From contig NZ_FNVA01000007.1 in NCBI RefSeq assembly GCF_900108185.1, positions 1 to 64,000 of the forward strand: a DNA stretch of 64,000 nucleotides. The letters are read 5' to 3'. Position numbers and translations under genes: made by a program. Source of the DNA: Bryocella elongata. Lineage in GTDB: Bacteria > Acidobacteriota > Terriglobia > Terriglobales > Acidobacteriaceae. Shown here piece after piece: positions 32,080 to 51,317 of this stretch. A model generated the notes under the pieces. The model saw only the letters and a program-made list of their open reading frames with translations. It was not told where the DNA came from and did not search any database. How positions within the stretch are numbered: position 1 is the stretch's first letter; every line of letters begins with the position of its first letter.

Positions 32080-34200
32080 ATGGACATCCTGACTTCCTGG
32101 CTCCGCACGTATGTGGAGATTCCTGTTGACGACCGTCAGCTCGCTGAAGACCTAACGCTGCGTGGCATTGCCGTGGAGGGCGTGTTTGATGCGCCTGGCG
32201 GCTCGCGTTTTGAGATGGACATCACGACCAACCGCGTCGATGCGATGAACCACTATGGCGTGGCGCGGGAGGCGGCGGCGATCTATGACGTGCCGTTGAA
32301 GTCGCTGGCGGAGGTGCATGGTTTGGAACCCACGTCTCAGAAGCGAGACGTGGGGCACCCGGTTGTGGAGGGTGACGCGTATCCGGTGCGGATTGAAGCG
32401 CAGGATCTTTGCGGGCGGTTTACGGCGCGGGTGATTCGTGGCGTTACGGTGAAGCCTGCGAGCGGGAAGATTGCCGAGTACTTTGCGGCGCTGGGGCAGA
32501 AGCCGATCTCGGGCCCGGTGGATGTGACGAACTTTGGCTGGATGGCGATGGGTCAGCCGACGCACGTGTTCGATCTGGATAAGCTGTCGGGCTCGATTGT
32601 GGTGCGGCGGGCGAAGGCGGGCGAGACACTGCGGTTGCTCGACGGCAGTGAGAAGACGCTGACGGCGGATGACCTTGTGGTGGCCGATGAGAAGCAGGCG
32701 CATGGGCTGGCTGGCGTGATGGGTGGATGGGATTCGCGCGTGACCGAGGAGACGAAGAACATCCTGGTGGAGGCGGCGTGGTTTGATCCGGGTATGGTGC
32801 GTGCGAGCTCGAAGCGGCATGGACTGCATACGGATGCGAGCCATCGGTTTGAGCGGGGTGCGGACTTCAACGCGGCGCCGGTGGCGAATGCTCTGGTGAC
32901 GCGGTTGGTGATCGAGCAGGGTGGCGGCGTGGTGGTTGGGCCGCTGACGGATGTGATTGTGCCCGCGCTGCAAGCCCAGACGGCGGGGCGTGCGAGTGTG
33001 GAGCTGCGGGTGAGCGAGGTGCAGCGGCACCTGGGCACGACGCTGGAGGCGGCTGAGGGTCGCGAGTCGGGCCTGAATGCTGCGATCGTCGAGCAGTACC
33101 TGAAGGCGCTGGGTTGTGAGCTGACGCCGACGGGCGCGGGTGCGTATGCCGTGGCGCTGCCGAGCTGGCGGCTGGATCTGGAGCGCGAGATCGACCTGAT
33201 CGAAGAGGTTGCGCGGGTGTATGGCTACAACCGTTTTGCGAACACGCTGCCGGCGTTTGCGGGTGGTGTGGTGCGGTTGCCGCATGCGGAGCATGAGCGT
33301 GTGCTGCGCGAGACGCTGCGGGCGCTGGGGTACAGCGAGGCGATCTCGAGCACGTTTGTTTCGGCGGAGAGCGCGCAGCTGTTTGGTGGCGCGGCGGGTG
33401 CGGTGAAGCTGGGCAATCCGCTGAGCGAAGAGGCGGGGATGCTGCGGCCGTCGCTGGTGCCGAACATGGCGGACATGCTGGCGAACAACCTGAATCGCGG
33501 TGTGGCGCAGGTGCGGATGTTTGAGCTGGGCACGGCGTTTACGGGTTCGGCGAAGGAAGTGTTCGAGCACACGGCGGTGTCGCTGGGCGCTACCGGCGGA
33601 GCTCGTGCGACGGCGCTGTATGCGGAGAGCGATGCGTTGTTCTTCGAGGTGAAGGGCGCGCTGGAGGGGCTGCTGGCGAAGTTTGTGGGCGCGGTGAGCT
33701 TCACTGCTGAAGGGCTGCCTGCGTGGATCGCGGCGGGCCGTGGCGCGCGTGTGCTGCTGGAGGGCGCGGAGGTTGCGGTCTTCGGCGAGCTGAGTGGCGC
33801 GGAGTCGGAGCGGCGCAAGCTGAAGCAGGTGTGCGTGGCGGGTGAGATCAACGCGACGGCGCTCTATGCGCGGCCGTTGTACTCGGCGATTGCGAAGGAG
33901 CTCTCGAAGTTCCAGGCGGTGGAGCGGGACTTCTCGTTCGTCTTCCCGGCGAGCGTGCAGTGGCTTGCGGTCGAGGGCGCGGTGCGCGAGCTGGGCATTG
34001 CGGAGCTGAAGAGCGTTGCGCCGCTGGAGGTGTTTGTGCCTTCGAAGCCGGGCGGAGCCATTGCGCAGGGGAGTTACTCGATGCTGGTGAGGGTGGTGCT
34101 GCAGTCGAATGAGCGCACGCTGACCGAGGACGAGCTGAGCGCGTGGAGCTCGCAGATTGTTGCGGCGCTGACGGGCGTGGGTGGCGTGCAGAGAAGCTAG
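32080..34200 (+). CDS. pheT: Phenylalanine--tRNA ligase beta subunit, lacking the EMAP-type domain
   Basis: This 706-residue subunit forms the alpha2-beta2 synthetase with PheS. It opens with DILTSWLRTYVEI and GIAVEGV as usual, then passes directly into FEMDITTNRVDAMNHYGVAR. In standard PheT (about 790-800 residues) some 115 residues of OB-fold tRNA-binding domain lie between these two motifs; that domain is absent. The B3/B4 editing region (VDVTNFGWMAMGQPTHVFDL, HGLHTDASHRFERG), the catalytic-like B6/B7 region and the C-terminal anticodon-binding FDX-ACB domain (SKFQAVERDFSFVF) are present. A family B repeat is read in frame at residues about 84-95 (EPTSQKRDVGHPV). Confidence 0.96.
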   Translation: MDILTSWLRTYVEIPVDDRQLAEDLTLRGIAVEGVFDAPGGSRFEMDITTNRVDAMNHYGVAREAAAIYDVPLKSLAEVHGLEPTSQKRDVGHPVVEGDAYPVRIEAQDLCGRFTARVIRGVTVKPASGKIAEYFAALGQKPISGPVDVTNFGWMAMGQPTHVFDLDKLSGSIVVRRAKAGETLRLLDGSEKTLTADDLVVADEKQAHGLAGVMGGWDSRVTEETKNILVEAAWFDPGMVRASSKRHGLHTDASHRFERGADFNAAPVANALVTRLVIEQGGGVVVGPLTDVIVPALQAQTAGRASVELRVSEVQRHLGTTLEAAEGRESGLNAAIVEQYLKALGCELTPTGAGAYAVALPSWRLDLEREIDLIEEVARVYGYNRFANTLPAFAGGVVRLPHAEHERVLRETLRALGYSEAISSTFVSAESAQLFGGAAGAVKLGNPLSEEAGMLRPSLVPNMADMLANNLNRGVAQVRMFELGTAFTGSAKEVFEHTAVSLGATGGARATALYAESDALFFEVKGALEGLLAKFVGAVSFTAEGLPAWIAAGRGARVLLEGAEVAVFGELSGAESERRKLKQVCVAGEINATALYARPLYSAIAKELSKFQAVERDFSFVFPASVQWLAVEGAVRELGIAELKSVAPLEVFVPSKPGGAIAQGSYSMLVRVVLQSNERTLTEDELSAWSSQIVAALTGVGGVQRS
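32329..32362. repeat. Family B repeat inside the pheT coding sequence, copy 4
   Basis: CCCACGTCTC, AGAAGC, GAGACGTGGG (perfect 10-bp stem), then GCACCCGG. It is read in the pheT frame as PTSQKRDVGHPV, in a linker between structural domains. Confidence 0.85.
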
Positions 34201-34205
34201 TTTGG

Positions 34206-34289
34206 TAGTGAATAGTGAATAGTGAATAGTGAGTAGTGAGTAGTGAGTAGTGAGTAGCGAGTAGCGAGTGGCGGGTGGCGGGTAGCGAA
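34206..34289. repeat. Heptamer tandem array TAGTGAA/TAGTGAG, 12 units
   Basis: Twelve exact-length 7-bp units start five bases after the pheT stop and drift gradually: TAGTGAA x3, TAGTGAG x4, TAGCGAG x2, TGGCGGG x2, TAGCGAA. No spacers, so it is not a CRISPR. Confidence 0.97.
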
Positions 34290-34332
34290 GGGCAGTCGCA
34301 ATTCCTTTGGCCTATCATCAGTTCTCCTGAGC

Positions 34333-34653
34333 TTGACGCGTGACCCCGGCGCTATCGTGTCGATTCCTGGCAACATCCAGATCCTCGCTCCATGGCGTTC
34401 TCTCGAAGAGGATCGACCCAGGGCCGATCTTCTTTCCGCACAACTCCTATCGGACATCTCGCCCAGTCATCCGCTCTGCGGTGCAGAGCTCAGGGCGGTG
34501 GGTGCTCGTACGGATCGCGATGACGTGCTGTTTGAAATCACTGGAGGCGATGCGCCGCTCGCGGTTGTTCACATGACCTGGCGAAAGGAATCGGACCCGC
34601 GGTGGCCGACGACGAAGTTCTATCAGAGCTGGGAGCAGTGGTCGCAAGAGTAG
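34333..34653 (+). CDS. Small protein of unknown function
   Basis: This 106-residue protein contains DDVLFEITGGDAPLAVVHMTWRKE and PRWPTTKFYQSWEQW. Small cytoplasmic proteins with 'HLTWxxKxExxxWPxT' endings are common hypotheticals in soil bacteria. The start is uncertain: TTG 34333 is the longest option and no clear ribosome-binding site is visible. It lies between the heptamer array and the putative inversion boundary. Confidence 0.6.
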   Translation: MTRDPGAIVSIPGNIQILAPWRSLEEDRPRADLLSAQLLSDISPSHPLCGAELRAVGARTDRDDVLFEITGGDAPLAVVHMTWRKESDPRWPTTKFYQSWEQWSQE

Positions 34654-34742
34654 ATGCGCCCCAGCCATGAGGAACACTCTTCGAGCATAGGTGGGGCTCC
34701 CAGGAGCGTCCTCTCGCAAGGCCAGCGCGTACACTTAATCTC

Positions 34743-35810
34743 GTGGCTCGCCGTACGACTCCCCCCGCACAACCCGACGCGCAGCTCGACCCTGTCGAAT
34801 GGCTCAAGGGCCTTCCCAAGGCCGAGCTGCACCTGCATCTCGAAGGCTCCATCACGCCCGAGACGCTGGTTGAACTCTCCCGCCAGAACGACGCGGTGCC
34901 GCTCACGATGCAGCAGGCACGTGGCGTTTACAGCTACACGGACTTCCCCAGCTTCCTGATGAGCTTCAAGGCCGTCACTGAGCGGCTGCACAAGCCCGCC
35001 GACTACGAGACCATCACCTACAACATGCTGCGCGATCTCTCCACCCAGGGCGCGCGCCATGCGGAGGCCTACATCTCCATCGGCATCCTGCACTGGCAGA
35101 ACCGGCTGGATGTCGACCTCGTCGTCGAGGCCATGGAGCGCGGCCGCGTGCGCGGTGAGAAGGACTTCGGCGTCTCTCTGCTCTGGATCATCGACGCCGT
35201 CCGGCACTTCGGCGTCGAGGCCTGCGCGAAGGTCTTTGACAAGGCCGCGGAGCTGAGCCGGATACTTCCATCTGTTGTGGGGATTGGAATTGGCGGCGAC
35301 GAAGCCCGCGGCCCTGCCCAGGAGTTCCGCGAGGTCTACGCGAAGGCCAAAGAGGCCGGTCTGCACCTTACCTGCCACGCCGGTGAAAGCACCGGCCCGC
35401 AGAGCATCTGGGGAGCAATCAACATCGGCGCCGAGCGCATCGGTCATGCCCTTACCGCCGAGCAGGATCCCGACCTCGTCGAAGTGCTGGCCGAACGCCA
35501 AATCCCCCTGGAGCTCAACGTCACCTCGAACCTCAAGACCGGCTGCTGTCCCCCACTGCAGGACCGCCCCGACGTGCCCGACCACCCGGTCAAGCGCTAC
35601 TTCGAAGATGGCCTGATGGTTACCCTGAACTCCGACGATCCACCGTTCTTCGGCGCCAACCTGCTGGAAGAATATGTCCTCGTCCACAAGGAGTTCGAGT
35701 TCTCCCTTGAGCAGATGCGGGAGCTGGCGGCCAACTCCATCGAAGCCAGCTTTTTAAGACCTGAGCGCAAGCTGGCGCTACTCGCCGAGATCGAACACTA
35801 CGGCTGGTAA
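34743..35810 (+). CDS. add: Adenosine deaminase
   Basis: This 355-residue enzyme hydrolyses adenosine (or a related aminopurine) to inosine and ammonia in purine salvage. The zinc site is complete: AELHLHLEGS gives the two N-terminal His ligands, LTCHAGES the third His region and catalytic Glu, ERIGHAL the catalytic His, and LNSDDPPFFG the Asp ligands. Length is normal. Start is GTG 34743, which gives a Pro/Thr-rich leader before the conserved core; no clear ribosome-binding site is seen. Its third codon positions favour C, unlike + strand genes outside the reversed-skew block. Confidence 0.94.
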   Translation: MARRTTPPAQPDAQLDPVEWLKGLPKAELHLHLEGSITPETLVELSRQNDAVPLTMQQARGVYSYTDFPSFLMSFKAVTERLHKPADYETITYNMLRDLSTQGARHAEAYISIGILHWQNRLDVDLVVEAMERGRVRGEKDFGVSLLWIIDAVRHFGVEACAKVFDKAAELSRILPSVVGIGIGGDEARGPAQEFREVYAKAKEAGLHLTCHAGESTGPQSIWGAINIGAERIGHALTAEQDPDLVEVLAERQIPLELNVTSNLKTGCCPPLQDRPDVPDHPVKRYFEDGLMVTLNSDDPPFFGANLLEEYVLVHKEFEFSLEQMRELAANSIEASFLRPERKLALLAEIEHYGW

Positions 35811-35852
35811 TCCATCACGCTCGCCCCGCGGATCCGAAAGATCAGGAGGGTC

Positions 35853-36173
35853 ATGGTCCGTCTTCTCATCCTCTATGAAATGCCCCTCGACGAAGCTGCC
35901 TTCCTGAAGCACTTTCACGAGGTGCACATCCCTCTGGCGCGGAAAGTTCCAGGCATCAGGCGGCACTTCTTCGGCCACCAGCCCATGCTCATCCGCGGCA
36001 GCGTCCCCGTCTTCCTCGTGGAAGGCTTCGACTTCGACGACATGGATGCCTTCGGAGCCGCAGCACGAAGCCCACACGGCCTGGTCTCCGCCCAGGACAT
36101 CACCGACAACCTGCAGCCCTTGAGCCCCGGCATGCGCAGCATGGTCTACGAGGTCATCGAGGAGCTGGTGTAG
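35853..36173 (+). CDS. EthD-family protein
   Basis: This 106-residue protein is a ferredoxin-like alpha/beta-barrel dimer of the EthD family: VRLLILYEMPLDEAAFLKHF, then HEVHIPLARKVPGIRRH, and FDDMDAFGAAARSPHG. The HxxxHIPL motif is the family hallmark. EthD was first seen beside ethyl tert-butyl ether degradation genes, but most members have no known role. It follows add by 42 bases and may share its transcript. Confidence 0.85.
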   Translation: MVRLLILYEMPLDEAAFLKHFHEVHIPLARKVPGIRRHFFGHQPMLIRGSVPVFLVEGFDFDDMDAFGAAARSPHGLVSAQDITDNLQPLSPGMRSMVYEVIEELV

Positions 36174-36213
36174 GGCGACAGCGATACGGATAGCTATTCG
36201 CTGTTCCGCTGCC

Positions 36214-36789
36214 TCACCGCTCCGGGGGGGCCGGTACCATCAGGGCGCCCGAGTCGATCTTCGGGATCCCGAAGTGTCCACTCAGGTGCAGCAGGTCCAG
36301 CGGCTTCAGGATGCCGCTGACCTCGACGACCGTCATCTGCTTCGGCGCGCGGATGAGCACGGTCACGCCGTCCACGTTCACGCCGCTGAAGTGCAGCCAC
36401 AGGTCGGTCAGTGGCTTGCTGGGTGACGCAGAGTCCTTCGCAGGCGCGTTCTGGTCGACCAGGTGCGTCCAGCCCGCCATGTTGTAGGCATGCATCAGCG
36501 CGTGCACATTCTCGGGGATGTAGAAGGCCGGCTCATGGAAGCGATAGGTCTGGAAGGTGATGCTGTTGAGCCCGGCGATGGGCTGCGTCAGCCCGCGGCC
36601 GTTGTCGAAGGCCTGCGCGGCGGACTGGATCATGTCGCGGTCGAAGGTGAACGCCGTGTGGCTGGCGTGCTCGCTCGTGATGCCTTCCAGCGCCTCCATC
36701 GCGCCCGGAGGCTGCGGAATCTGCGCCACCGCGCTCAACGAAAACACCACACTGGCAACCATCAGCCCCAACGACACACGAGTCCTCAT
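36214..36789 (-). CDS. Exported protein of unknown function
   Basis: This 191-residue protein has a signal peptide (VSLGLMVASVVFSLSAVAQ). The mature domain includes TAFTFDRDMIQSAAQAF, HALMHAYNMAGWTHLVDQN and LWLHFSGVNVDGVTVLIRAP, and ends in PKIDSGALMVP. I do not recognise the family. ATG 36789 is chosen because it opens the signal peptide; an in-frame ATG at 36804 is possible and has GGGGTGAGG between the two. Confidence 0.6.
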   Translation of the reverse strand: MRTRVSLGLMVASVVFSLSAVAQIPQPPGAMEALEGITSEHASHTAFTFDRDMIQSAAQAFDNGRGLTQPIAGLNSITFQTYRFHEPAFYIPENVHALMHAYNMAGWTHLVDQNAPAKDSASPSKPLTDLWLHFSGVNVDGVTVLIRAPKQMTVVEVSGILKPLDLLHLSGHFGIPKIDSGALMVPAPPER

Positions 36790-36922
36790 CGCCTCACCCC
36801 GCATACAGAGATAGACCGGGATTCGCGGGAAAAAGTTGTGGCTTTGGGCGTGTGAACGGTCATTCCATCGAAAGACGTTGTCTCGCCCGCCGACGAGGGC
36901 CACCCAACTTCAGCAAAAGAAA

Positions 36923-36947
36923 GGGTCCGAGGCATAGCCCCGGACCC
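36923..36947 (-). terminator. Intrinsic terminator of the second VWFA gene
   Basis: On the - strand GGGTCCG and CGGACCC pair with further GG/CC pairs inside, followed by TTCTTTT. It starts 24 bases after the stop at 36971. Confidence 0.8.
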
Positions 36948-36970
36948 AATCCTGTTCGCTGACTCCTGAT

Positions 36971-38053
36971 TTACTCGTCCTTCGGAGCAAAGTAGCCCTT
37001 CTTCGCCCGCACGGCATAGCGCGGGTCCAGGGCCTGCAGGTAGATCGTTCGGAACGAACCATCGCGCTTGAAGTTCGCCGGTGTGTAGACCAACAGGTAC
37101 TGGCTGCGAAGCTCCTCTTCCACGTTATGGAAGCCGGTGGCTACATCTTCCATGCGCGTCGGATAGAACGCCTGGCCGCCGGTCGCGTCGGCGATCTGCT
37201 GCAGCACATCGTCGCCCTTGTCCTTCGACGGGCCAACGTTGGTCGAGATCGTGAAGACGATCGTCTCGGCGCGCTGGCACATCTTGATCGCGTCCGACTC
37301 CAGGGCGCGCGAGTAGTCGTCGTCGCCGTCCGAGACCAGCACGATCGCCTTGCGGACCGCGAAGTCCTGCTTCAGCGTCAGCATCTCATCGCGGCAGGTC
37401 TTGTACAGCGAATCGAACAACGCCGTGCCGCCACCGGGCCGCAGCTTGCGGATGCCCGTGTCCAGCATGTCGATGCGGTTGGTAAAGCCCTGCGAGACAT
37501 CCGTCTGCACGTCGAAGCCCTCGACGAAGGCGCGGTCGGCCGGGTGCAGTGTCTGCAACAGGAAGTCCGTCGCGGCCTGCTGCTCGAACTGGAAGCGCGA
37601 CCGGATGGAGCTCGACGTATCCAGCATGATGCCCACGCGAAGCGGAAGGTTCGTCTGCTGCACAAAGCGCCGCACCTTTACCGGAGGACGCCCGTCGTCC
37701 AGCAGGCCGAAGTTCTGCTGCTGCAGCCCCGTCACGAAGCGGCCCTTTTTGTCCGCCACCGTGAACACCAGGTCGACTTCGTTCACGCTGACCCTGATGG
37801 TCTGGATGTTCGGGTCGGTCGGCGCCGCTTCCTCGGGCGAACCCGTAGGGGTCTGCCCGGTGGCCGGCTGAGCGCTGGGCGCGGAGGTCGGCTGCTGAGC
37901 CGGGGTGGTCGACGAGGCAGGGGCAGCGGGTGTCTGCGCGGTCGCGGAAACAAGGCACGCCAGTGCCAGAATGCCCGCACCTGCGAGCCGGGCCGCGGGC
38001 CGGGTCACAAGACCGGACCAGCGCGCGGTTACATCAATCTTCATATCCGTCAT
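36971..38053 (-). CDS. Secreted VWFA-domain protein of acidobacterial type
   Basis: This 360-residue protein has a signal peptide (LAGAGILALACLVSATAQ), then a Pro/Ala/Gln/Thr-rich linker of about 50 residues. The family opening is IRVSVNEVDLVFTVADKKGRFV. The VWA domain has VGIMLDTSSSIRSRF, a canonical DxSxS metal site, and IVLVSDGDDDYSRAL. It ends in LLVYTPANFKRDGSFRTI. Unlike the 3303-5012 paralogue, its metal site is intact. ATG 38053 is used; ATG 38044 is nine bases on. A strong terminator follows. A surface protein-protein interaction role is inferred. Confidence 0.88.
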   Translation of the reverse strand: MTDMKIDVTARWSGLVTRPAARLAGAGILALACLVSATAQTPAAPASSTTPAQQPTSAPSAQPATGQTPTGSPEEAAPTDPNIQTIRVSVNEVDLVFTVADKKGRFVTGLQQQNFGLLDDGRPPVKVRRFVQQTNLPLRVGIMLDTSSSIRSRFQFEQQAATDFLLQTLHPADRAFVEGFDVQTDVSQGFTNRIDMLDTGIRKLRPGGGTALFDSLYKTCRDEMLTLKQDFAVRKAIVLVSDGDDDYSRALESDAIKMCQRAETIVFTISTNVGPSKDKGDDVLQQIADATGGQAFYPTRMEDVATGFHNVEEELRSQYLLVYTPANFKRDGSFRTIYLQALDPRYAVRAKKGYFAPKDE

Positions 38054-38131
38054 CGTATCAAGTTGTCCTTGGCGCTGTTCCCGCCATCCGCCGATCCACA
38101 CGCCGATTCCCGGCCGTAGCCCGACCTATCT

Positions 38132-39742
38132 CTACTGTCCGCCATGCAGGCGCTCCAGCACCTTCTCCAGCTCCAGCGGCAAAGGCGCTTCCAGCGTCAG
38201 CTCTTTCCCCGTCCGCGGATGCCGGAATACCAGCTCCGCCGCGTGCAGGAAGTTTCGCGTAACCGAGAACGACTCGTCCAGTGGGCTTTGGGTTCCTTTC
38301 GGTTCGACGCTCTTACCCGCCTTCGGAGAGCCAGCCTTTTTCGCAGAGGCCTTTGCCGCCGCAGCCTTTACCGCCGCAGACTTCTTCACTCCCGGCTTCG
38401 CCGCCTCCGGCACAATCACCGTCGCCGCGCCGTACAGCGTATCGCCCACTACCGGGTGCCCGATCGACGTCATGTGAACGCGGATCTGGTGCGTTCTCCC
38501 GGTCTCGATCTTCACCTCGACCAGCGAGAACTTGCCATACGGCCCTTCGAAGCGCTCCAGCACCAGCCAGTGCGACACCGCGTTGCGCATGTTCCCGGCG
38601 CCACGCCTGGTGGTCATGCGCGTGCGGCGAACGCTGTCGCGCCCGATCGCCAGATCCACCGTGCCTTCGTCGTCCTTCACCCAACCCTGCACCAGCGCCA
38701 GGTACGTCTTGCTCACCTGCCGCGCCGCAAACATCTCGCCCAGCTTGCGGTGCGCGACATCGTTCTTCGCCACCACGATCAGCCCGCTCGTCTGCTTGTC
38801 CAGACGATGCACGATGCCGGGCCGCAGCTCGGCAAGATGCGATTGCGGAGCCGCGACGATCTCCTCCGCTTCAACACTCTCTTCCTCGCCCTCAGCGTCC
38901 GGTTCGGCATCCGCGTCTTCGTCTTCCAGCTCACCCGCGCCGTGGCTCAGGTCGTTGCCGAAGCGGAACAGCAGCGCATTCACCAGCGTGCCCGAGTTGT
39001 GCTCGGTCGAGCCCGAACCCGCGTGCACCATCATCCCCGCCGGCTTGTTCACCACCGCCAGGTCCTGATCCTCGTAGATCACATCCAGCGGGATGTCTTC
39101 CGCCACGGCCCGCAGCGGAGGCCGCTGCGCTTCGCCCGTGATCTCGATCGTCTCGCCGCCGCGCAGCTTCAGGCTGGCCTTCTCGGACTTGCCATCGACG
39201 CGCACCAGGTCCGCGGCCACCAGCTCCTGCACACGGCCGCGGCTCACATCCGGCAACGCCTTCGCGAGGTACGCATCCAGCCGCATGCCCTTGGCCGCAA
39301 CCTCTGCCGTAAAGCTCCGGGTCTCACCCACGACCTTCAGCTTCGCCTTCGCGATGTTGCGCTCGACGACCGGAGGCTTCGCCTGCTGTGCCTGCGCTTC
39401 CGCATAGGGATTGGCATACCGCGGAGGAGCGTAGGTCTCGGCGGCGACCTTCGAACCCGAAGCTCCGCGCGTGGTGATCCAGTCGTTCTTCGCGATGCGC
39501 TCCTCGAGCGTCGGCTCGCCATCATCTTCCTCTTCGAGGAAGATGAACGTCGCCAGGCCATCGCCTTCGGTACGCTTCGCCTTTTTCTTCTTCTTGGGCT
39601 CGACCTCGAGGTCGAGAAACGCAGCAGCCAGCCTGGCCTTCTCGGCTTCGGCCTGTTCTTCGGCAATCGTGCGCTGCTTGCGATACTCCGCACGCACCGA
39701 CTGGCGTCGCTTGCCCTTGGGCAGCATGTTCTTCGACGGCAT
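38132..39742 (-). CDS. rluD: RluD-type rRNA pseudouridine synthase with long N-terminal extension
   Basis: This 536-residue enzyme of the RsuA/RluA superfamily isomerises uridines in 23S rRNA. An S4 domain (MRLDAYLAKALPDVSRGRVQ) lies at about residues 170-230. The catalytic domain has DLAVVNKPAGMMVHAG, the active-site motif HRLDKQTSGLIVVA with the nucleophilic Asp, and GRTHQIRVHMTSIGHPVVGD. RluD is normally about 320 residues. The extra length is a Lys/Glu-rich N-terminal extension of about 160 residues, an acidic insert (EDEDADAEPDAEGEEES) and an Ala/Lys insert near the end. The start overlaps the stop of the upstream Lgt-like gene (TGATG), so translation is coupled. Confidence 0.92.
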   Translation of the reverse strand: MPSKNMLPKGKRRQSVRAEYRKQRTIAEEQAEAEKARLAAAFLDLEVEPKKKKKAKRTEGDGLATFIFLEEEDDGEPTLEERIAKNDWITTRGASGSKVAAETYAPPRYANPYAEAQAQQAKPPVVERNIAKAKLKVVGETRSFTAEVAAKGMRLDAYLAKALPDVSRGRVQELVAADLVRVDGKSEKASLKLRGGETIEITGEAQRPPLRAVAEDIPLDVIYEDQDLAVVNKPAGMMVHAGSGSTEHNSGTLVNALLFRFGNDLSHGAGELEDEDADAEPDAEGEEESVEAEEIVAAPQSHLAELRPGIVHRLDKQTSGLIVVAKNDVAHRKLGEMFAARQVSKTYLALVQGWVKDDEGTVDLAIGRDSVRRTRMTTRRGAGNMRNAVSHWLVLERFEGPYGKFSLVEVKIETGRTHQIRVHMTSIGHPVVGDTLYGAATVIVPEAAKPGVKKSAAVKAAAAKASAKKAGSPKAGKSVEPKGTQSPLDESFSVTRNFLHAAELVFRHPRTGKELTLEAPLPLELEKVLERLHGGQ

Positions 39743-40770
39743 CAGCGCGTCTCCTTCAAATCAAAACTTGGTTCCTGCCGGAGTTTTCCTACATACTCCC
39801 GCAAGACCAGAAATCCCTCTGGGCCGCAATAGGCTCTCGACCCGGGAGCAGGAGGGAACTCGTTGGGAAGACTCACAAAGCGACGCTGCACTTCAAGAAT
39901 GAGTGGATCGACCACCACTGCATATTCCAACGTCTCATGTCCCCACCCTCCGGAAGTGCCATCCAGAAATTCCTCGAGGATCTCTGCGGCCTCAATGCGA
40001 GTGACACTCCAAGGCTTGGGCCTAAATCTCACAATGGCACCCGCGAGGATCGCGGCTAACGCCACATACTGCGCCGGATCAAGCCATGCCGAGCCCTGGC
40101 TCTCCACCGGCTGCCGCAGCATATCCAGCAGGAACGTCACCACGCCGCCCAGCAACAGCACCCACGCCGCAGCTTCGCCGACACGCTTGCGCTGCATCAG
40201 CACCCGCAGCGACCACGCCCCGATCGCGAGCCACAAGAGCAGCGCATAGATCTGCACCGGGTGTACCTTGCCCAGGATGTGATCGCCCGGCGTCACCACG
40301 CCCCACGGCAGCCGCGTGGGCATGCCGGCCTCGGTGCCTTCGACGAAGTGCGCCAAGGCCAGCACCGCAGCCAGCACGCAGCCGCTCGGCGCGAATGCGT
40401 CCAGTACTTCCAGCACACGCAGCTTCTTCCAGCGCAGCCACGCATACGTTGCCACGCCCGCGAGCAACAGTCCCAGCGGCGTCAGCGATGGCAGCAACAG
40501 AACCGTCATCGGAAACTTTGTAAAGGTGGGCGGAGCGGCGGCGATGAGGATCAGCCGCGAGGCCACAAAGGCCGCGACCACCACTGTCATGCCCGCATCC
40601 CACAGCAGCCCCGGAGCCACACCAACGAACCGCGCTGTGTACTGGCTCAACAGCAGCGCAGCGATGACTCCCACGGCCGCAAGCAGCCCGAAGACAGGCA
40701 CACGCATCGAGCCGACGCGCAGCATCCCCGGTATCTCAGCCAACAGTGCAGCGTGTAGTGCGTTCCCCAT
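39742..40770 (-). CDS. Lgt-like membrane protein with a degenerate active-site signature
   Basis: This 342-residue polytopic protein aligns with prolipoprotein diacylglyceryl transferases: FVEGTEAGMPTRLPWGVV corresponds to the Lgt signature region, followed by HPVQIYALL (HPSQLYE in Lgt) and LDMLRQPV (FFREP). However, the GRxGNFxNGE core is replaced by ALAHFVEGTE, so the Arg and Asn residues essential in E. coli Lgt are missing. A C-terminal soluble extension of about 90 residues (VTRIEAAEILEEFLDGTSG) is also unusual. It is probably a paralogue with a different job. Its stop overlaps the rluD start. Confidence 0.75.
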   Translation of the reverse strand: MGNALHAALLAEIPGMLRVGSMRVPVFGLLAAVGVIAALLLSQYTARFVGVAPGLLWDAGMTVVVAAFVASRLILIAAAPPTFTKFPMTVLLLPSLTPLGLLLAGVATYAWLRWKKLRVLEVLDAFAPSGCVLAAVLALAHFVEGTEAGMPTRLPWGVVTPGDHILGKVHPVQIYALLLWLAIGAWSLRVLMQRKRVGEAAAWVLLLGGVVTFLLDMLRQPVESQGSAWLDPAQYVALAAILAGAIVRFRPKPWSVTRIEAAEILEEFLDGTSGGWGHETLEYAVVVDPLILEVQRRFVSLPNEFPPAPGSRAYCGPEGFLVLREYVGKLRQEPSFDLKETR

Positions 40771-41157
40771 GCATTCACAAGGATACGCGGTCGAGCGGCA
40801 AGCTAACGGCCACGCCGCTGACGCAAAGCGCTATCCGGGCGAAGCCCGCGAACGCGCAGCGCTGCTTCAAAGAGAAGACCGACCCACGGGGCCGTACCGC
40901 GACGCGCTGGTGAACCCGTCCTAAGACGTTCGGGATTCAGCCGTGGCTCTTTAGGCTTTCCGGACTGGCGGACATAGCACACCGAGCCATATATACGAGC
41001 CAAACCCCTGGTTCAATGAATGTTGGTTCAACCAGCGAAGATCGCCATACCTGCTTTGCAGGCCGGTCTCTGGATTGGATGCTAATGTGCCGCCGTGGAT
41101 CGTGCAACTTGACAGACGTGGTAGCCTGCCTGCGTCCGGCAAAGCGCGGCCCCGCCG
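40771..41157. other. Intergenic stretch between TlpA-like and Lgt-like genes
   Basis: About 390 bases. The part near the Lgt-like start holds family D copy 2. The rest shows no gene, recognised RNA or terminator; it presumably carries the promoter of the Lgt-like/rluD pair. Confidence 0.5.
40836..40867. repeat. GC-rich palindromic repeat, family D copy 2
   Basis: CGGGCGAAGCCCGC followed by GAACGCGCAGCGCTGCTT. It shares both ends with the longer copy at 28220-28298 and looks like a compact version. Confidence 0.4.
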
Positions 41158-42285
41158 TCACTGCCCCGCCGCCGACGCAACCCCGGATGTCGTTGCCGGA
41201 TGCGCCTCACGCGCCTTGGCCAGCAGCTTCTTCAGCCGCCCTTCCACATCCGATCCCGATCCCACCATCTCCGCCGTCAGCACGCCATCGGAGTCGATCG
41301 TGAAGTAGTGCGGAATCGCATTGATGCCGAAGGCGTCGCTCAACTTGTGGTCCGCGTCCCGGTACTGCACCCACGTCATCTCGTTCTTCACGAGAAACTG
41401 CTTCCACTTCGCCTCGTCCGCATCCCAGCTCACGCTCAGGATCACCAGCGGCTGCCCCGCAAACTCCTTCGCGATCTTCTTCATGTGCGGCAGCTCTTCG
41501 TTGCACGGACCGCACCACGTCGCCCAGAAGTCGATCAGCACAACCCGCCCGCCCATCGCGTCGAGATTGAACTTCGCCCCGTCCAGCGACGTCACCTCGA
41601 ACGGCGGAGCCATCTTGTGCAGCGAAAGCTCCGGGTCTGCCGCAAAGTGCTGCGCCCGCAGCCGCGCCGGGTCTTTCGGGCTCACGCATGCCGCGCACTG
41701 CTCGAACGAGGTCTTCGCCTCGTCCATGCGATTCATCCGCGCCAGCACCCGGCCATCGCCATACAGCGCCGCCGCACTCTTCGGCTCCAGCGCAATCGCC
41801 GCCTGGAAGGCCTCGTGCGCTGCGGCCAGCTGCGCCGGCTTGGGCTTCTCTCCACCCTGGCCCACCAGGGCCTGCCCCCGCATCACCTGCGCCGCGGCCT
41901 TGCCGTCGACGCTCGGGGAGACCTGCACCAGCGTCGTCGCCGTGGCCACCGCGTCCTTCCACTCACCCATCGCGACCTGCGTGTCGTACAGCCCCATCAG
42001 GCACGCCGCACATTGCCCGCCCGAGAGCTTCACCACCTTCTTGTAATCCTCGTTGGCCTGAAGGATCTGCCGGTGCGCCAGCTCCGCCTTCGCCTTCCGC
42101 AGTATGTCCAGGAACTTCGGGTCCTGCGCATACACCGGCAAAGCAGGCGCCGCCGTAGCAGCCGGCGCGCTCGCCGCGGCCTTCGCAGGCGCAGGAGGAA
42201 CCGCTCCCGCATCGACCGCTGTCTGCGCCGAAAGGGCCACACTGCCAAGAAAGAAGACAAACGGAAGGAAGCGAGTAAGACTCAT
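41158..42285 (-). CDS. TlpA/ResA-type exported thioredoxin with N-terminal TPR region
   Basis: This 375-residue protein has a signal peptide (FLPFVFFLGSVALSAQT). Residues about 55-190 form helical TPR-like repeats (ILRKAKAELAHRQILQANED, AAHEAFQAAIALEPKSAAAL). The C-terminal thioredoxin fold has the redox motif in FWATWCGPCNEELPHMKKI. It would reduce or shuffle disulfides outside the cytoplasm, as TlpA and ResA do in cytochrome c maturation, but the partner is unknown. A further CAACVSP pair sits in the TPR region. Neighbours are the Lgt-like gene downstream and zapA upstream on the same strand. Confidence 0.88.
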   Translation of the reverse strand: MSLTRFLPFVFFLGSVALSAQTAVDAGAVPPAPAKAAASAPAATAAPALPVYAQDPKFLDILRKAKAELAHRQILQANEDYKKVVKLSGGQCAACLMGLYDTQVAMGEWKDAVATATTLVQVSPSVDGKAAAQVMRGQALVGQGGEKPKPAQLAAAHEAFQAAIALEPKSAAALYGDGRVLARMNRMDEAKTSFEQCAACVSPKDPARLRAQHFAADPELSLHKMAPPFEVTSLDGAKFNLDAMGGRVVLIDFWATWCGPCNEELPHMKKIAKEFAGQPLVILSVSWDADEAKWKQFLVKNEMTWVQYRDADHKLSDAFGINAIPHYFTIDSDGVLTAEMVGSGSDVEGRLKKLLAKAREAHPATTSGVASAAGQ

Positions 42286-42420
42286 CGGCGCTCCGGATCA
42301 AGAGGATTCGCCCTCCATCATCCCGCGATGGTCCTACCCGCGCAACCTCAATCTGTCGTTCCAGCGAACAACCTGCGGAGAAAGGTCAGCACGTCGCCGG
42401 AGCCTTCCGGTTCCGAACAT

Positions 42421-42476
42421 CCCAAGTCCCCAAGTCCCCAAGTCCCGAAGTCCCGAAGTCCCGAAGTCCCGAAGCA
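42421..42476. repeat. Octamer tandem array CCCAAGTC/CCGAAGTC, 7 units
   Basis: Three CCCAAGTC units, three CCGAAGTC units and a final CCGAAGCA lie between the thioredoxin-like and zapA genes. On the transcribed (-) strand the CCGAAGTC units read GACTTCGG and contain C-UUCG-G tetraloop sequences. Confidence 0.95.
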
Positions 42477-42505
42477 CGGCTGTCCCCGCAACGGCTCAAG
42501 ACGTT

Positions 42506-42889
42506 CTAGCCCGCTTTGCGGCCGTCCAACACCGCGTCCAGCATTCCGGCGAGGTTCCCCGCCTTGGCTCGCGCGCTCTGCGCCTGACTCGCACTGTTCG
42601 CCACGCTGCCTGCCAGCTGCTCGTACCGCGCCCGCAGCGTCGCCAGCTCGTCGGCGATGTTCAGCGCTGCCAGCACCGCCACGCGCAGCGAATCCACCGT
42701 CGCGCCCTGCGACGTCACCGCCCGCATCTTGTCGTCCACCGTGGCAGCGAGCTTCTCGATGTAAACCGGATCCGGGCCCTTGAGCTGATAGATCTGGTCG
42801 TAGATCTCGACCACGACGGCGCCAGCCTCCCGCGCCGCCAGCTCGGCGCGCGATTGCTCCGCTGCGCTCTTTTGTTGCATGTCACTCAA
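42506..42889 (-). CDS. zapA: Cell division protein ZapA
   Basis: This 127-residue protein binds and stabilises FtsZ filaments at the division ring. The N-terminal beta/alpha domain has VVEIYDQIYQLKG and DPVYIEKLAATVDDKM, followed by VDSLRVAVLAALNIADEL and a C-terminal coiled coil. Length is typical. It follows the coiled-coil gene 42951-43259, whose product resembles ZapB. In Firmicutes, zapA sits near pheT; here pheT is 8 kb away across the reversed-skew block. Confidence 0.9.
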   Translation of the reverse strand: MSDMQQKSAAEQSRAELAAREAGAVVVEIYDQIYQLKGPDPVYIEKLAATVDDKMRAVTSQGATVDSLRVAVLAALNIADELATLRARYEQLAGSVANSASQAQSARAKAGNLAGMLDAVLDGRKAG

Positions 42890-42950
42890 CTGCTGTACCT
42901 CTTCTCATCCCATCCCGCCTCACGGCTGGATGCTGCAACCTGTCATCCCG

Positions 42951-43259
42951 CTACAACAGCTCATCCATCTGGGCGAGCATCGCTTCCACGCGCTGGCGGA
43001 CACCTTCGCGCTCCCGCTTCATCGCATCGAGCTCGCCGGCCGTCTCGCTGCTCGCCGAAAGCTTGTCCTTCAGCTCCGCCACCTCGGCGACTGCCGCAGA
43101 ATGCGCGCTCACCATCTCGGCGAAGTCGTGTTGCAGCTGCTGGAGCTTCGCTTCAGCAGCTGCACGAAGCTCGCGCTCCTTCTTGATCAGCTCAACCGTC
43201 AGCAACACCTTCTGTTCCAGCGCCTGAAATTCGTCCACGCTGATCGTCGCTGCCGCCAT
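42951..43259 (-). CDS. Coiled-coil protein, ZapB-like
   Basis: This 102-residue protein is almost entirely predicted coiled coil (FQALEQKVLLTVELIKKE, LQQLQHDFAEMVSAHSAAV, AMKREREGVRQRVEAMLAQM). Size and composition fit ZapB, the ZapA partner. It is encoded 61 bases upstream of zapA on the same strand. Sequence identity in such proteins is low, so the assignment rests on context. ATG 43259 chosen. Confidence 0.7.
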   Translation of the reverse strand: MAAATISVDEFQALEQKVLLTVELIKKERELRAAAEAKLQQLQHDFAEMVSAHSAAVAEVAELKDKLSASSETAGELDAMKREREGVRQRVEAMLAQMDELL

Positions 43260-43621
43260 TGAACTGCCTCCGTACACCTAAAGTCTCTCCGAGTATAGTT
43301 TCGTTCGCCGTGGATACCTCATCGGCCCAGCCAGGGGGTACCCGATTGAATCCCTCCCACGATTTTTCAGACCATCGCAACGGCGTCGCAGGCCGACAAA
43401 CTACGCAGCGTACAGTAGGGGCCTGAGCATTTCCCTGCAGGTTGACTCCAGCTCCTCGATTGTTCATGGGCGTTTTCCCCAATGAAAACGCCACCGCACA
43501 CCGCTATTCGGGGCCCATCGACAGGGAAAATGCTCTGTCGTCCCCTGATCCGTATTGCCTCTCACGTCCCGCCCAGCGCAAGGCACGCCCGCGCAGGCGA
43601 GAAGGGCTCCTGGACCATCTC
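43260..43621. other. Divergent intergenic region between the ZapB-like and flavodoxin genes
   Basis: About 360 bases. It holds the perfect palindrome at 43469-43492 and a weak family B-like tail (GGGGTACCCGA near 43337). No gene is recognised. Promoters for both genes must lie here. Confidence 0.5.
43469..43492. promoter_or_regulatory. Perfect palindrome upstream of the flavodoxin gene
   Basis: GGCGTTTTC, CCCAAT, GAAAACGCC: a 9-bp perfect inverted repeat with a 6-base centre, 130 bases before the flavodoxin start. It could be an operator or an RNA hairpin. No U-tract follows on either strand. Confidence 0.4.
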
Positions 43622-44227
43622 ATGGCGCGTATCGCAATCGTCTATCACAGCGGGGCAGGCCACACCCGCAAGCTCGCCGAAGCCGTCGAGCGCGGCGTCC
43701 TCGCTGCCGGCGGTCAGGCCGTCCTGCTCCCTGTCGAGGCCTTCAACTCGGACGAACCCGGCCCCGCCAGCCAGGCGCGCTGGGCGCTTCTCGATGCTTC
43801 CGATGCCATCATCTTCGGCGCTCCCACGTACATGGGCGGCGTCTCTGCGCCCTTCAAAGCCTTCCTCGACGCCACCTCGCAGCGCTGGGTCCGCCACGCC
43901 TGGAAGGACAAGTTCGCCGCCGGCTTCACCAACTCCGGCAACCTCTCCGGCGACAAGCTCAACACGCTCACGACCATCATGCTCGCCGCCATGCAGCACG
44001 GCATGATCTGGATCAGCCTCGGCCTGCACCCGCCCGCCTCCGACGACCTCAACGGCCCGGGCGCGGAGACGATCAACCGCCTCGGCAGCTTCATGGGAGC
44101 GATGGCCCAGTCCAGCGTGATGCTCGTCGCCGACCTCGCCCCGCCCGCCGGCGATCTGCGCACCGGCGAGCTCCTGGGCGAACGGGTAGCCATCCTCACC
44201 GCAAGATTCCTGGGCGAGAGGAAGTAG
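43622..44227 (+). CDS. Flavodoxin-family protein (WrbA/NADPH:quinone-reductase-like)
   Basis: This 201-residue protein has the flavodoxin fold. It opens with ARIAIVYHSGAGHTRKLAEAV (FMN phosphate loop). ALLDASDAIIFGAPTYMGGVSAPFKAFLDAT is the typical WrbA/NQO-like FMN-binding segment, followed by KFAAGFTNSGNLSGDKLNTL. It probably reduces quinones or other acceptors with NAD(P)H. ATG 43622 begins the conserved domain; an open frame upstream has no conserved sequence. It converges on the catalase-like gene, and strand composition flips right after its stop. Confidence 0.9.
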   Translation: MARIAIVYHSGAGHTRKLAEAVERGVLAAGGQAVLLPVEAFNSDEPGPASQARWALLDASDAIIFGAPTYMGGVSAPFKAFLDATSQRWVRHAWKDKFAAGFTNSGNLSGDKLNTLTTIMLAAMQHGMIWISLGLHPPASDDLNGPGAETINRLGSFMGAMAQSSVMLVADLAPPAGDLRTGELLGERVAILTARFLGERK

Positions 44228-44277
44228 CTGGGGCACCGGATTCCCGCGAACACATGAGGGCGCGAGACTAAAAACGC

Positions 44278-45231
44278 TTACGCCGTTGGCGGCGCGGTTC
44301 TGCGCTTGCGGCCGCTGAGGAGGTAGGCGGCGGCGCGGAGTTCGAGGAGCGGGTCGGCGGAGGGCGCGATGCCTTCGATGCGGGGGATGGGATCGAAGAT
44401 GATCTTCTGCTGCTCGGCGGGGTTGTCGGGGACGACCCCGGTGAGTTCGAGGGTGCCGAGCGGGAGCAGGGTGCGGGACTCGGGCCAGTGCTGGGTGGCG
44501 TCGTCCGTCACGTCGCCTGCTTCGGCGAGCTGGACGAGGATGTGGAAGCGCACAGGGCCGGCGGCGAGGCGCTGCGGCAGCTCATCGTAGTGCGCGTTGG
44601 GGGCGAGGGCGGCAGCCTGCTCGCCGGTGAGGAATTGGTTGCCGGCCTCGGGCACGATGCGGTAGCGGCCGAAGGTGACCTTGCCGTCGGCGTTGGTGAA
44701 CTCGAAGGCGGTGACGCCGAAGTAGGTGTCGGTGGCGAGGGAGACGGGGAAGGGCTTGGGCGCCTGTACGAAGGCCAGCGCGGTGGGATGCGAGCCGAGG
44801 AAGAGCTCGACGGGCTTGGGCGAGGCCGTGTCCGGGCCGCTGGCGGCGATGGCCTTGAGGAGCTCGAGGAACTCGTAGCCGTCGCGCGTGGGGAAGCCGT
44901 CGGTGGAGTGGGCGACGATGTCGGTGTGGGAGTGCTCGGCGAGATAGAAGCGGATGGCGAGGCCGCGGGGGTTGGCGTTGGGATCGCTGTCGGGGATGAC
45001 GGGGACGCCGGTGGAGTTGGAGAAGCGCGCGAAGACGGGCACGGAGGGGCGGCTCAGGTGCGCGGCGCTGGAGAGCGAAGGCGCCTCGGCACTGGGCGTG
45101 AAGGTGCCCTTGAGCAGGATGCCCTTGGCGTGGGCCGGGCGGTGCCCGGGATGCGCGCCGAAGAGCTGCTCGAACTGTGCGAGAAGGTCATTGGCGAGGG
45201 CGACGATGCGTTCATCCTGCGGTAGCGGCAT
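44278..45231 (-). CDS. Catalase-family peroxidase-like haem protein (SrpA type)
   Basis: This 317-residue protein is a short catalase-fold protein. The distal His lies in HRPAHAKGILLKGTF, followed by PVPVFARFSNSTG and NPRGLAIRF. The substrate-channel segment has HSTDGFPTRDGYEFLELLKAI. Near the end, SADPLLELRAAAYLL matches the proximal haem segment, where Arg and Tyr (R-x-x-x-Y) are retained. Catalases proper are about 480 residues or more; this mini form groups with catalase-related peroxidases. Location is cytoplasmic; no signal peptide is seen. Confidence 0.88.
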   Translation of the reverse strand: MPLPQDERIVALANDLLAQFEQLFGAHPGHRPAHAKGILLKGTFTPSAEAPSLSSAAHLSRPSVPVFARFSNSTGVPVIPDSDPNANPRGLAIRFYLAEHSHTDIVAHSTDGFPTRDGYEFLELLKAIAASGPDTASPKPVELFLGSHPTALAFVQAPKPFPVSLATDTYFGVTAFEFTNADGKVTFGRYRIVPEAGNQFLTGEQAAALAPNAHYDELPQRLAAGPVRFHILVQLAEAGDVTDDATQHWPESRTLLPLGTLELTGVVPDNPAEQQKIIFDPIPRIEGIAPSADPLLELRAAAYLLSGRKRRTAPPTA

Positions 45232-45285
45232 AACGGTGTTCTCTCCGGTTGAAATGAAGGCTGCAGTGTAGCGCAGACGGATGAG

Positions 45286-45313
45286 GGGTTAGGGAACAGG
45301 GATTAGGGATTGG
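45286..45313. repeat. Heptamer-period tandem repeat (GGATTAG-like, 4 units)
   Basis: GGGTTAG, GGAACAG, GGATTAG, GGATTGG lie upstream of the catalase-like gene. Confidence 0.6.
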
Positions 45314-45407
45314 TCGAGGCGCTTGGGTTCGAGGCTAAGACCCGTTGCTGGGTCTGTGTGTCCCTCGAAGGAGTTGTGCGAGGAATCGAGATGCGGCTTA
45401 AACGAAG

Positions 45408-45441
45408 CCCGGGTCCGAAGATCCGGACCCGGGGCACCCGA
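45408..45441. repeat. Family B hairpin repeat (GGTCCG-stem subtype), copy 5
   Basis: CCCGGGTCCG, AAGA, TCCGGACCCGGGG, CACCCGA. Almost identical to copies at 28101, 54840 and 63309. It ends 14 bases before the 3' end of the BI-1 gene. Confidence 0.88.
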
Positions 45442-45454
45442 TGGTAGCCAGGCG

Positions 45455-46144
45455 TTAGCTCCAGCCGCCGCCGCGGCGGCGATCGCTGTTGCCGCCTCCG
45501 AAGATCTGGAGCAGGGCGATGAAGATGTTCAGCGCGTCGAGGTAGATGGAGAGGGCCATCTGGACGGGGCCGAAGTCCTGGCCGCGGTCTTTGAGGCGCA
45601 TGAAGTCCACCAGCAGGAGGACGCTGAAGATGCCCAGCGTGGCCCAGGCGTAGAGGCCCGGCGAGACGAAGTGCACGAACATCCCGAGCAGGCCGATGAG
45701 CACGAGGCCGATGAGCGCGAAGAAGGCGATGCGGCCGACCTTCATGTAGTTGAAGGTCGCGAACTGCGCGACGACCGCCATGATGCCCATGCCGAGCGCG
45801 GTGGTGGCCGCAGCGTTGAAGACGATGGTGGGGCCGTTGGGCGTGTGCAGGTAGCCGTTCACGATGGGGCTGATCTGGACGCCCATGAGCAGGGTGAAGG
45901 CGTAGAAGAGCGTGAGCGCGAGGGCGTTGGACCGGCGGGCGGCGTAGCTGATGGCGAAGATCATCGCCATGTTGACCAGGAAGATGGCCATGATGCCGAT
46001 GCCCAGCGAGGGCGGCGCGAGGTACGTGCCCACGGCCGTGAAGACGAAGCCGACCGTGGTGATCCAGAGGACCTTGGAGAGCAGGCTGGCCGGCGAGCGG
46101 GTGTCGAGAACTTGAATGCCCTGGCGGGCGTCGATGATCTGCAT
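45455..46144 (-). CDS. Bax inhibitor-1 family membrane protein
   Basis: This 229-residue protein has seven predicted membrane helices in the BI-1/YccA pattern: VLWITTVGFVFTAVGTYLA, YAFTLLMGVQISPIV (family motif), GMGIMAVVAQFATFNYMKVG and ALSIYLDALNIFIALLQIFG. The last, with its Asp, is the conserved C-terminal helix. Bacterial members such as BsYetJ are pH-sensitive calcium leak channels; YccA modulates FtsH. The Gly/Arg-rich tail is common. Transcribed alone. Confidence 0.93.
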   Translation of the reverse strand: MQIIDARQGIQVLDTRSPASLLSKVLWITTVGFVFTAVGTYLAPPSLGIGIMAIFLVNMAMIFAISYAARRSNALALTLFYAFTLLMGVQISPIVNGYLHTPNGPTIVFNAAATTALGMGIMAVVAQFATFNYMKVGRIAFFALIGLVLIGLLGMFVHFVSPGLYAWATLGIFSVLLLVDFMRLKDRGQDFGPVQMALSIYLDALNIFIALLQIFGGGNSDRRRGGGWS

Positions 46145-46245
46145 GGGAGCTACCCTAAATCCTCTCAGACTTCACTGTATTGGACGCGGCAGGGGAGGGA
46201 AAGTCGCGGGATGTGAGTCGTGGGGACTCAGATTGTGGCGTTGGG

Positions 46246-47169
46246 CTAACGATCCGGAAACGGCGCCAGGAGGACGCCGGGTGCGTCGTGATACTTCCGG
46301 AAGAGCGCGAAGACGTAGCGCATGCGCTCTTCGATCTTTGTCCAATCATTTGCGGCTGTTGGGGTTGCGATCCCCGGGACGTCTTCACCCACAGTCAGGA
46401 CCGTATCGCCGATCTCATAGGTCATCATGCGCTGGGTGGCGCACCGGCGAACGATGAAGGGCATCGCACCCCGGATATATGGTTCGAGGCGGATGTGTTC
46501 GTGGAAGACGATGGCGCTGTTTCCGGTGATCATCGCTTCGCGCTTCAAGGCGGGATCCTGAGTGTCGAAGGCCTCGAGATAGTTCTGGAAGGCTGTGGCA
46601 AGGCGGTCCTGTCCGCTACGTTCCGACGGGCCCGCACGAAGGCCTGCGAAGAAGCCCTCGCGGTCGGCCGAGGACGCGCCGCTTTGCAGGAGGTCCAGGA
46701 ACCGTGCGCTCTGCTCGCCGATGTCCTCCAGTACGGTTCGATTGCCTTCGAGGACGAGCCGGGCGGCCTTGGCGCGGCTCCAGATCGCGATCTGGCGGCC
46801 TGTGGCACCACCTAAAAAGCTTCCCAGCAGAGCCCCGAGAGCGCCATTTGCCAGCCCGGAATGCCAGTGCAGGAGCCGGCCACACACAAAGCCGGTGGCG
46901 AGCCCGAGGGCAAGACCGCAGAGACCGGCTGTGATGGTAGCGTTGCGGATGGCATCGCCGAGGTCTTCCTGCCGGATGGTGACGCCAGCCTTGCGCGATC
47001 CCCATACGGCCCACGAGTGGAAGTTGGGGCCGGCATCGCTTCCGAGCGCGTCAGCCAAGGCTTCCGAGAGTGAGAAATGGAGGAGGGTGATGCGCTCGTT
47101 GCAGCGAGCGGGATCCGGTTCGGCGCAGGCTTCTTCAATTCTGAGCTTCCACTCTGCGGCGGTGGTCAT
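46246..47169 (-). CDS. Protein of unknown function with a glycine-zipper membrane hairpin
   Basis: This 307-residue protein begins with a helical region (ERITLLHFSLSEALADALG, NFHSWAVWGSRKAGVTIRQED). Two hydrophobic Gly-rich helices follow (ATITAGLCGLALGLATGFVCG and LANGALGALLGSFLGG). The rest is soluble and helical (ARLVLEGNRTVLEDIGEQSA, IVFHEHIRLEPYI, WTKIEERMRYVFALFRKYH). Similar hypotheticals occur in soil bacteria, but I know no function. It might insert a Gly-zipper hairpin in the membrane. Confidence 0.7.
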   Translation of the reverse strand: MTTAAEWKLRIEEACAEPDPARCNERITLLHFSLSEALADALGSDAGPNFHSWAVWGSRKAGVTIRQEDLGDAIRNATITAGLCGLALGLATGFVCGRLLHWHSGLANGALGALLGSFLGGATGRQIAIWSRAKAARLVLEGNRTVLEDIGEQSARFLDLLQSGASSADREGFFAGLRAGPSERSGQDRLATAFQNYLEAFDTQDPALKREAMITGNSAIVFHEHIRLEPYIRGAMPFIVRRCATQRMMTYEIGDTVLTVGEDVPGIATPTAANDWTKIEERMRYVFALFRKYHDAPGVLLAPFPDR

Positions 47170-47206
47170 GCGAGCATTATCGCGCTGCGTCCGCTCAATG
47201 CGGTAC

Positions 47207-47989: not shown

Positions 47990-48052
47990 GCTGATCTCAC
48001 GATACGCTCTTCTGCGATTGCCATTTGGCGGATGGAAGCGGACAATTGGCGT

Positions 48053-48487: not shown

Positions 48488-48597
48488 AGCAAATCTCCTG
48501 TCGCTGTGAAGTGGAAACGGGAGTGCGGCAACGTTTTTCTTGAGAAAAAACGTACATAAGGATCTTGGTTTCGCGGTACACCTACAGGAGATTTGCT
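48488..48597 (+). promoter_or_regulatory. mRNA inverted repeat sequestering the RES toxin ribosome-binding site
   Basis: AGCAAATCTCCTGT (48488-48501), directly after the antitoxin stop, is perfectly complementary to ACAGGAGATTTGCT (48584-48597), which contains the AGGAG of the toxin gene. Between them ACGTTTTT/AAAAACGT (48531-48538 and 48546-48553) forms an inner 8-bp hairpin. If paired, the toxin start would be closed to ribosomes unless an antitoxin-translating ribosome or another factor opens it. Confidence 0.7.
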
Positions 48598-48600
48598 CTC

Positions 48601-49071: not shown

Positions 49072-49112
49072 GGGCGGTTCGGGACGTGGCGTTCGTGCTG
49101 ATGCGTGGGGAG

Positions 49113-49631: not shown

Positions 49632-49637
49632 CGTCAG

Positions 49638-51200: not shown

Positions 51201-51317
51201 GGCTGGGGTCTCCGGTGCAGAAAATTTAGCGGAATTGCAACGATTGTACGGCCTTGGCGCGGTGGCGGGCCGCGGGGCGATTGCTGAGACTGCGTGGGGC
51301 GCGTAGCCTGTTGCGCG

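Follow-up and report, generated by a model that had tools for sequence, protein, structure and literature searches.

The window analysed here is a stretch of 64,000 nucleotides, bases 1–64,000 of contig C15 (376,740 bases) in the 5.67-Mb, 16-contig genome of Bryocella elongata. It contains a block (best edges 34,300 and 44,210, judged from skew change points, segmentation and synteny) in which both the gene order and the strand composition run backwards relative to the surroundings. To the left of the block, and outside it, lies pheT (32,080–34,200, + strand; TIGR00472, 459.9 bits against a cut-off of 402.65), with a putative pheS, named from position alone, at 26,435–27,541. Five bases past pheT a tandem array of GTAGTGA-type heptamers marks the left edge (34,205–34,288, +), and the left gap also holds orf34333 (34,333–34,653, +), a 106-aa open reading frame (ORF) that matches no Pfam or NCBIfam family. 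The block itself opens with two + strand genes, the adenosine deaminase gene add (34,743–35,810; TIGR01430, above cut-off) and an EthD-family ORF (35,853–36,173; TIGR02118). These are followed on the − strand by o36214 (36,214–36,903; no NCBIfam match, but a neighbour of add in relatives too), a VWA-domain protein (36,971–38,101; TIGR03436, above cut-off), an RluA-family pseudouridine synthase (38,132–39,742; TIGR00005, above cut-off), an lgt-like prolipoprotein diacylglyceryl transferase (39,742–40,770; best NCBIfam match 58 bits, below cut-off), 6S RNA (ssrS, 40,877–41,067; RF00013, 50.4 bits, gathering threshold 46.4), a TlpA/ResA-like thioredoxin-fold protein (41,158–42,285; NCBIfam matches below cut-off), zapA (42,506–42,889; PF05164, 63.3 bits) and, preceding zapA, a small zapB-like ORF (42,951–43,277) that has no Pfam family and is conserved beside zapA in relatives. 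A + strand flavodoxin-like flavin mononucleotide reductase (43,622–44,227; PF03358) completes the block. The first gene outside on the right is a 317-aa catalase-like gene (44,278–45,231, −; PF00199; + strand skew +0.31), and the right flank continues with a Bax1-I family protein (45,455–46,144, −; PF01027), which adjoins add in the relative G010. Protein families were assigned through NCBIfam and Pfam scans of the 19 proteins of 29.1–48.9 kb, several of which have no family match; a DUF2071 protein (Pfam) is among the genes scanned.

An earlier note on this DNA had described the + strand as richer in G than in C outside the block, whichever strand is coding, and richer in C inside it. Skews by line and by gene agree with this description, and the four line counts that it quoted (33,721–33,780, 40,141–40,200, 43,921–43,980 and 44,281–44,340) all proved exact on recounting. 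The + strand GC skew is −0.126 within 34,655–44,250 and +0.216 over the flanks (1–34,200 plus 44,279–64,000). C exceeds G in 129 of the 165 60-base lines starting at 34,300–44,210, and G exceeds C in 804 of the remaining 901 lines of the window. A block model with two change points beats a model with no block by 234 log units of likelihood, with the best left point at 34,300 (34,280–34,370 within 3 log-likelihood units) and the best right point at 44,210 (range 44,150–44,300). Two-state segmentation of the whole contig places the block at 34,697–44,210; on the left the two methods are ~400 bases apart, owing to the near-zero skew of orf34333. For comparison, across 227 other 9.6-kb intervals from the contig's first 120 kb the skew bottoms out at +0.068. 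Flanking genes of either strand all lie on a G-rich + strand, with the exception of a small ORF at 26,054 (−0.06), and coding orientation therefore does not explain the reversal.

The genes are turned round together with the skew. Among the 26 genus-mates that have both genes, zapA lies on the same strand as pheT and 0.5–1.6 kb downstream of it in 24. In G006 it is 42 kb off on the opposite strand, and in G022 the two genes are on separate contigs; G020 is without both genes in this survey. We mapped 15 genus genomes, picked for linkage or closeness, gene by gene. Eight of them (G010, G007, G015, G001, G024, G021, G014 and G017) have pheT, zapB, zapA, lgt, rluA, the VWA gene and o36214 in this order on the + strand, followed by add on the − strand, add being opposite to pheT in collinear relatives. 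G016 has the full order, but ~21 kb separates o36214 from add. The order through the VWA gene is kept in 11 of the 15: G002 and G023 match up to this gene and have the add side reversed, the stretch available for G026 stops early, the run is split in G025 and G009, and in G006 it is displaced. Collinearity with relatives after flipping the block had been set beforehand as the test of an inversion, together with the prediction that zapB-like and zapA would then follow pheT; the re-inverted block restores exactly the order of the eight genomes. Against G007, the window is collinear at 20–34 kb, inverted and descending at 34.6–44.2 kb and collinear again at 47.8–53.7 kb, so that the block genes are reversed in order and strand against both flanks. 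In G007 and G015, and only in these two of 27 genus-mates apart from a distant 30% match in G004, a flavodoxin orthologue (56%) separates pheT from zapB; it is on the opposite strand, in the predicted orientation. The EthD-family ORF is missing from the stretches mapped in relatives. The earlier note had allowed that the window's gene order might turn out to be common in relatives, which would have refuted an inversion; the window proved to be the exception.

To polarise the change we turned to a wider set of named loci, found through pheT (the best 80 of 239). In this set zapA is downstream of pheT on the same strand in 60 loci and on the opposite strand in 4 (three downstream, one upstream). 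No zapA was found in the other 16, 11 of them with room of 3 kb or more; the same-strand, pheT-linked state is therefore held by 60 of the 64 loci in which zapA was found. In a PheT tree with 33 rows, six of them inverted, the inverted state requires five changes, gains or losses, all forced by well-supported branches, and the window is nested among genomes of its genus that have the ancestral order. The other state is the one found in relatives and outgroups, and the flip is derived in this genome's lineage; the strand-composition signal is reversed in the block alongside its genes. Given five changes on one PheT tree, the separation of pheT and zapA by inversion here is a single instance of an ordinary process. 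The zapB–zapA run is likewise turned relative to pheT in Terriglobus roseus (L086), a Terriglobus metagenome-assembled genome (MAG; L087), Granulicella bog_445 (L120) and a lichen MAG (L103). The second end points of these four differ from that of the window, and their skew is weak or mixed, except that in L103 it is strong at pheT only.

With gene order, orientation, skew and derived state established, we put at roughly 95% the probability that a segment of ~9.5–10 kb inverted in this lineage after its split from the compared genus-mates. One break would have fallen between pheT and the convergent flavodoxin gene, in the intergenic space that follows pheT, and the other upstream of add. The zapB-like ORF, zapA, the tlpA-like gene, 6S RNA, the lgt-like gene, rluA, the VWA gene, o36214, the EthD ORF and add would have shifted together, and the piece would have taken along its own promoters. 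The skew in the block is reversed because the region has a strong strand-specific excess of G over C: the moved piece would carry the old skew on the wrong strand, relaxed by about a sixth. The direction of replication is one that we infer. Because the skew-bounded gaps share no inverted repeat of more than 8 bases, the ends were most likely rejoined by rare repeat-independent end joining or by fork-associated rejoining. Ku is encoded in this genome and in 19 of 28 genus genomes (nine show none), so end joining would be possible.

By genes, the left break lies between the end of pheT (34,200) and the stretch preceding add. The motif TACACT upstream of add (window 34,730–34,735) is common to five of the six relatives shown, and the break must therefore lie to its left, at about 34,201–34,729; of the earlier placement at 34,655, the block edge itself is real and the exact position is less certain. 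The right break is past the flavodoxin stop codon (44,227) and, by skew, ahead of the catalase-like gene at 44,278. This agrees with the earlier placement of the right switch in the gap 44,228–44,277 if the catalase-like gene is counted as outside; otherwise the break could lie anywhere up to 45,454. Since the ends of pheT and of the flavodoxin gene are 24–27 bases apart in G007 and G015, much of the 542-base left gap in the window is new, be it the heptamer array, orf34333 or both.

The 8-base sequence GCCCCAGC and its complement had been noted at the two edges, with the proviso that so short a match may be chance. The window contains 14 copies of it, where 6.9 would be expected, and the longest inverted match between the skew-bounded gaps, 8 bases, is equalled in 38% of 281 and 41% of 3000 random stretch pairs; we rejected it as a recombination site, the match being at chance level. 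No other convincing inverted repeat was found across the block in the pieces covering 33.9–44.8 kb, where the longest has 36 bases at 72% identity and lies away from the edges. The heptamer array was also considered as one half of a broken hairpin and rejected: there is no partner array at the right edge, and similar arrays are scattered in the genome. GTAGTGA-type arrays also occur at loci L002–L005 and at G010:C26:431,909–432,000, some just past stop codons, and in L004 and G010 they are paired as inverted copies that form hairpins, the G010 hairpin sitting at the same place as the window's left-edge array. Other short tandem arrays in the window are two octamer arrays, TCCCGAAG repeated 7 times and ACAGCGGA repeated 9.8 times, and a 27-base unit repeated 3 times (positions, listed together: 42,420–42,474; 21,404–21,481; 57,240–57,329).

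The age of the inversion can be judged from how far the skew has relaxed. Read in the ancestral orientation, fourfold sites have a skew of +0.36 inside the block against +0.57 in the flanks, a ratio of 0.62 (0.53–0.73). As a yardstick we used the five of 13 relative rows with a flank skew of at least 0.5, whose block/flank ratios are 1.03, 0.89, 0.90, 0.95 and 1.01; one of these rows, G006c2, has just three block and two flank genes. Eight rows were dropped for weak flank skew or for rearrangements of their own (G002, 1.21; G023, 2.70; G010, 0.65; G007, 1.13; G024, 0.81; G017, 2.47; G016, 1.25; G009a, −0.68). Set against the yardstick range of 0.89–1.03, the ratio of 0.62 suggests that the skew has moved about a sixth of the way (~17%, a rough figure from simple exponential relaxation, 0.62 versus an expected 0.96) towards its new equilibrium, and hence that the inversion is, roughly speaking, recent yet not brand new. 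Of the earlier proposal of a recent event with uncorrected skew, the recency holds, while the skew is already partly relaxed.

Several observations weigh against this reading. The nearest relatives are only ~74% identical in PheT. G010, which is collinear and non-inverted with weak skew, also has a low ratio (0.65, 0.36–0.98), so a low ratio alone is no proof of relaxation. No relative of orf34333 was found in 100 other genomes. The catalase-like gene is elsewhere or otherwise oriented in relatives: its homologues in six genus-mates (61–65%) lie elsewhere in G002, G010, G023 and G025; in G006 and G009 they adjoin Bax1 but are turned the other way. As neither this gene nor orf34333 fits a bare flip, the junctions underwent more than one change. 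Finally, a 12-base inverted match joins 34,437–34,448 in the left gap to 45,369–45,380 in the gap between the catalase-like gene and Bax1. A match of this length is seen in 9% of 3000 random pairs over the full right stretch and in 1.5% for the catalase–Bax1 gap alone, a gap picked after the match had been seen. If real, it would shift the right break past the catalase-like gene, so that this gene would lie inside the block; the gene's skew of +0.31 speaks against such a position, unless the gene arrived later.

That the block was simply joined in the wrong orientation during assembly of this draft is very improbable. Both junctions lie inside one contig, the longest inverted repeat found, off the edges, is too short to have misled an assembler, and the block skew is weakened beyond that of the five strongly skewed relatives, as after time spent in the new orientation, although G010 makes this last point non-conclusive. 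Still less credible is a programmed, phase-variable inversion by a site-specific recombinase. The sharp edges, both with GCCCCAGC in inverted orientation, would suit it, but this match is at chance level and no inverted repeats of the kind such a system would use are found at the edges. No recombinase is named among the 11 block proteins scanned, nor among all 19 scanned proteins in and beside the block (several without a family), other genomes show no mixture of orientations at these edges, and the partial relaxation of the skew suggests a settled state. An explanation with no inversion at all, in which the skew switches at a replication origin or terminus or follows the coding strand, is already refuted by gene order: pheT can lie near the origin (119–186 kb from dnaA in G006, G007, G016 and G025), but here the genes themselves flip along with the skew, making an origin or terminus at either edge unnecessary, dnaA is on a different contig (C7), opposite switches 10 kb apart cannot be an origin plus a terminus, and outside genes of both strands share one skew sign.

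Having settled on an inversion, we considered whether the pheT–zapB boundary is a recurrent break site in the Acidobacteriaceae, where heptamer arrays or hairpins after stop codons would promote breaks that Ku-type joining heals as inversions, with the skew as a datable record. Among the judged named loci this boundary is intact in 61 of 72, with four changed in orientation and seven lacking the partner. The other boundaries are intact in 69/72 (pheS–pheT), 64/64 (zapB–zapA), 36/43 (zapA–lgt), 35/35 (lgt–rluA), 30/31 (rluA–VWA) and 9/14 (VWA–add). The five tree changes, the left-edge heptamer array, the G010 hairpin and Ku in 19 of 28 genomes speak for such a site; the absence of an array at the right edge and of visible Ku in 9 of 28 speak against it. 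Moreover, the loci were picked by pheT, and this boundary, like the loose ones in general, separates transcription units, where breaks may simply be tolerated. Hence a hot spot is not demonstrated, and we regard the idea as unlikely.

Reversed blocks are found elsewhere in the genus. The complete genome G007 has a sharp skew switch at 2,149,390, 9 kb from dnaA, and reversed blocks, 7–70 kb in size, lie along both of its arms; the window's block is one example of an event common in the genus. Skew in G007:C1:1.90–2.42 Mb (L154–L155, L185–L188, L215–L234) reaches ~0.3–0.4 with many reversed blocks on both sides of the switch, and the G007 pheT lies within a reversed block of ~70 kb. The pattern looks like the record of many inversions, with synteny checked for the pheT part only. 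From 57,495 to the end of the window, and on to ~68 kb of C15, the sequence is inverted relative to G007; those genes at 57.5–63.1 kb that are present in G015, G001 and G024 are oriented there as in the window, and G007 is probably the changed genome at 57.5–68 kb. A 570-aa ORF (14,925–16,637) and its G007 match share 91% identity, much more than the other genes compared. Along C15 (L012–L015, L022) the skew declines from +0.3 through zero to −0.3 across ~250 kb (about the 120–200 kb region) and jumps back to positive at ~325 kb; an origin at that switch was considered, but just one C15 ORF nearby has its G007 counterpart in the neighbourhood of the dnaA region. On contig C7 the sampled skew is positive on average around dnaA.

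Local inversions have been read from GC skew by Merrikh and Merrikh (2018; PMC6220195). As in that paper, we read a segment of reversed local skew as a physical inversion that has yet to adapt; unlike its authors, we confirm the skew by the gene order of relatives, which is not their main method, and make no claim about selection. Liu and Zhang (2022; PMC9098844) called inversions from orthologue orientation with an outgroup and saw that skew-based and phylogeny-based calls overlap poorly. The derived orientation is similarly polarised here by related species; in contrast to their comparison, skew and phylogeny agree, in a single case. The event by itself is ordinary, such flips being already known. 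The two papers disagree on whether skew records past inversions, and the window is a clean instance in which base skew and comparative gene order indicate the same single inversion with the same edges. Genomes with skew as strong as here could calibrate the rate at which it relaxes after a flip.

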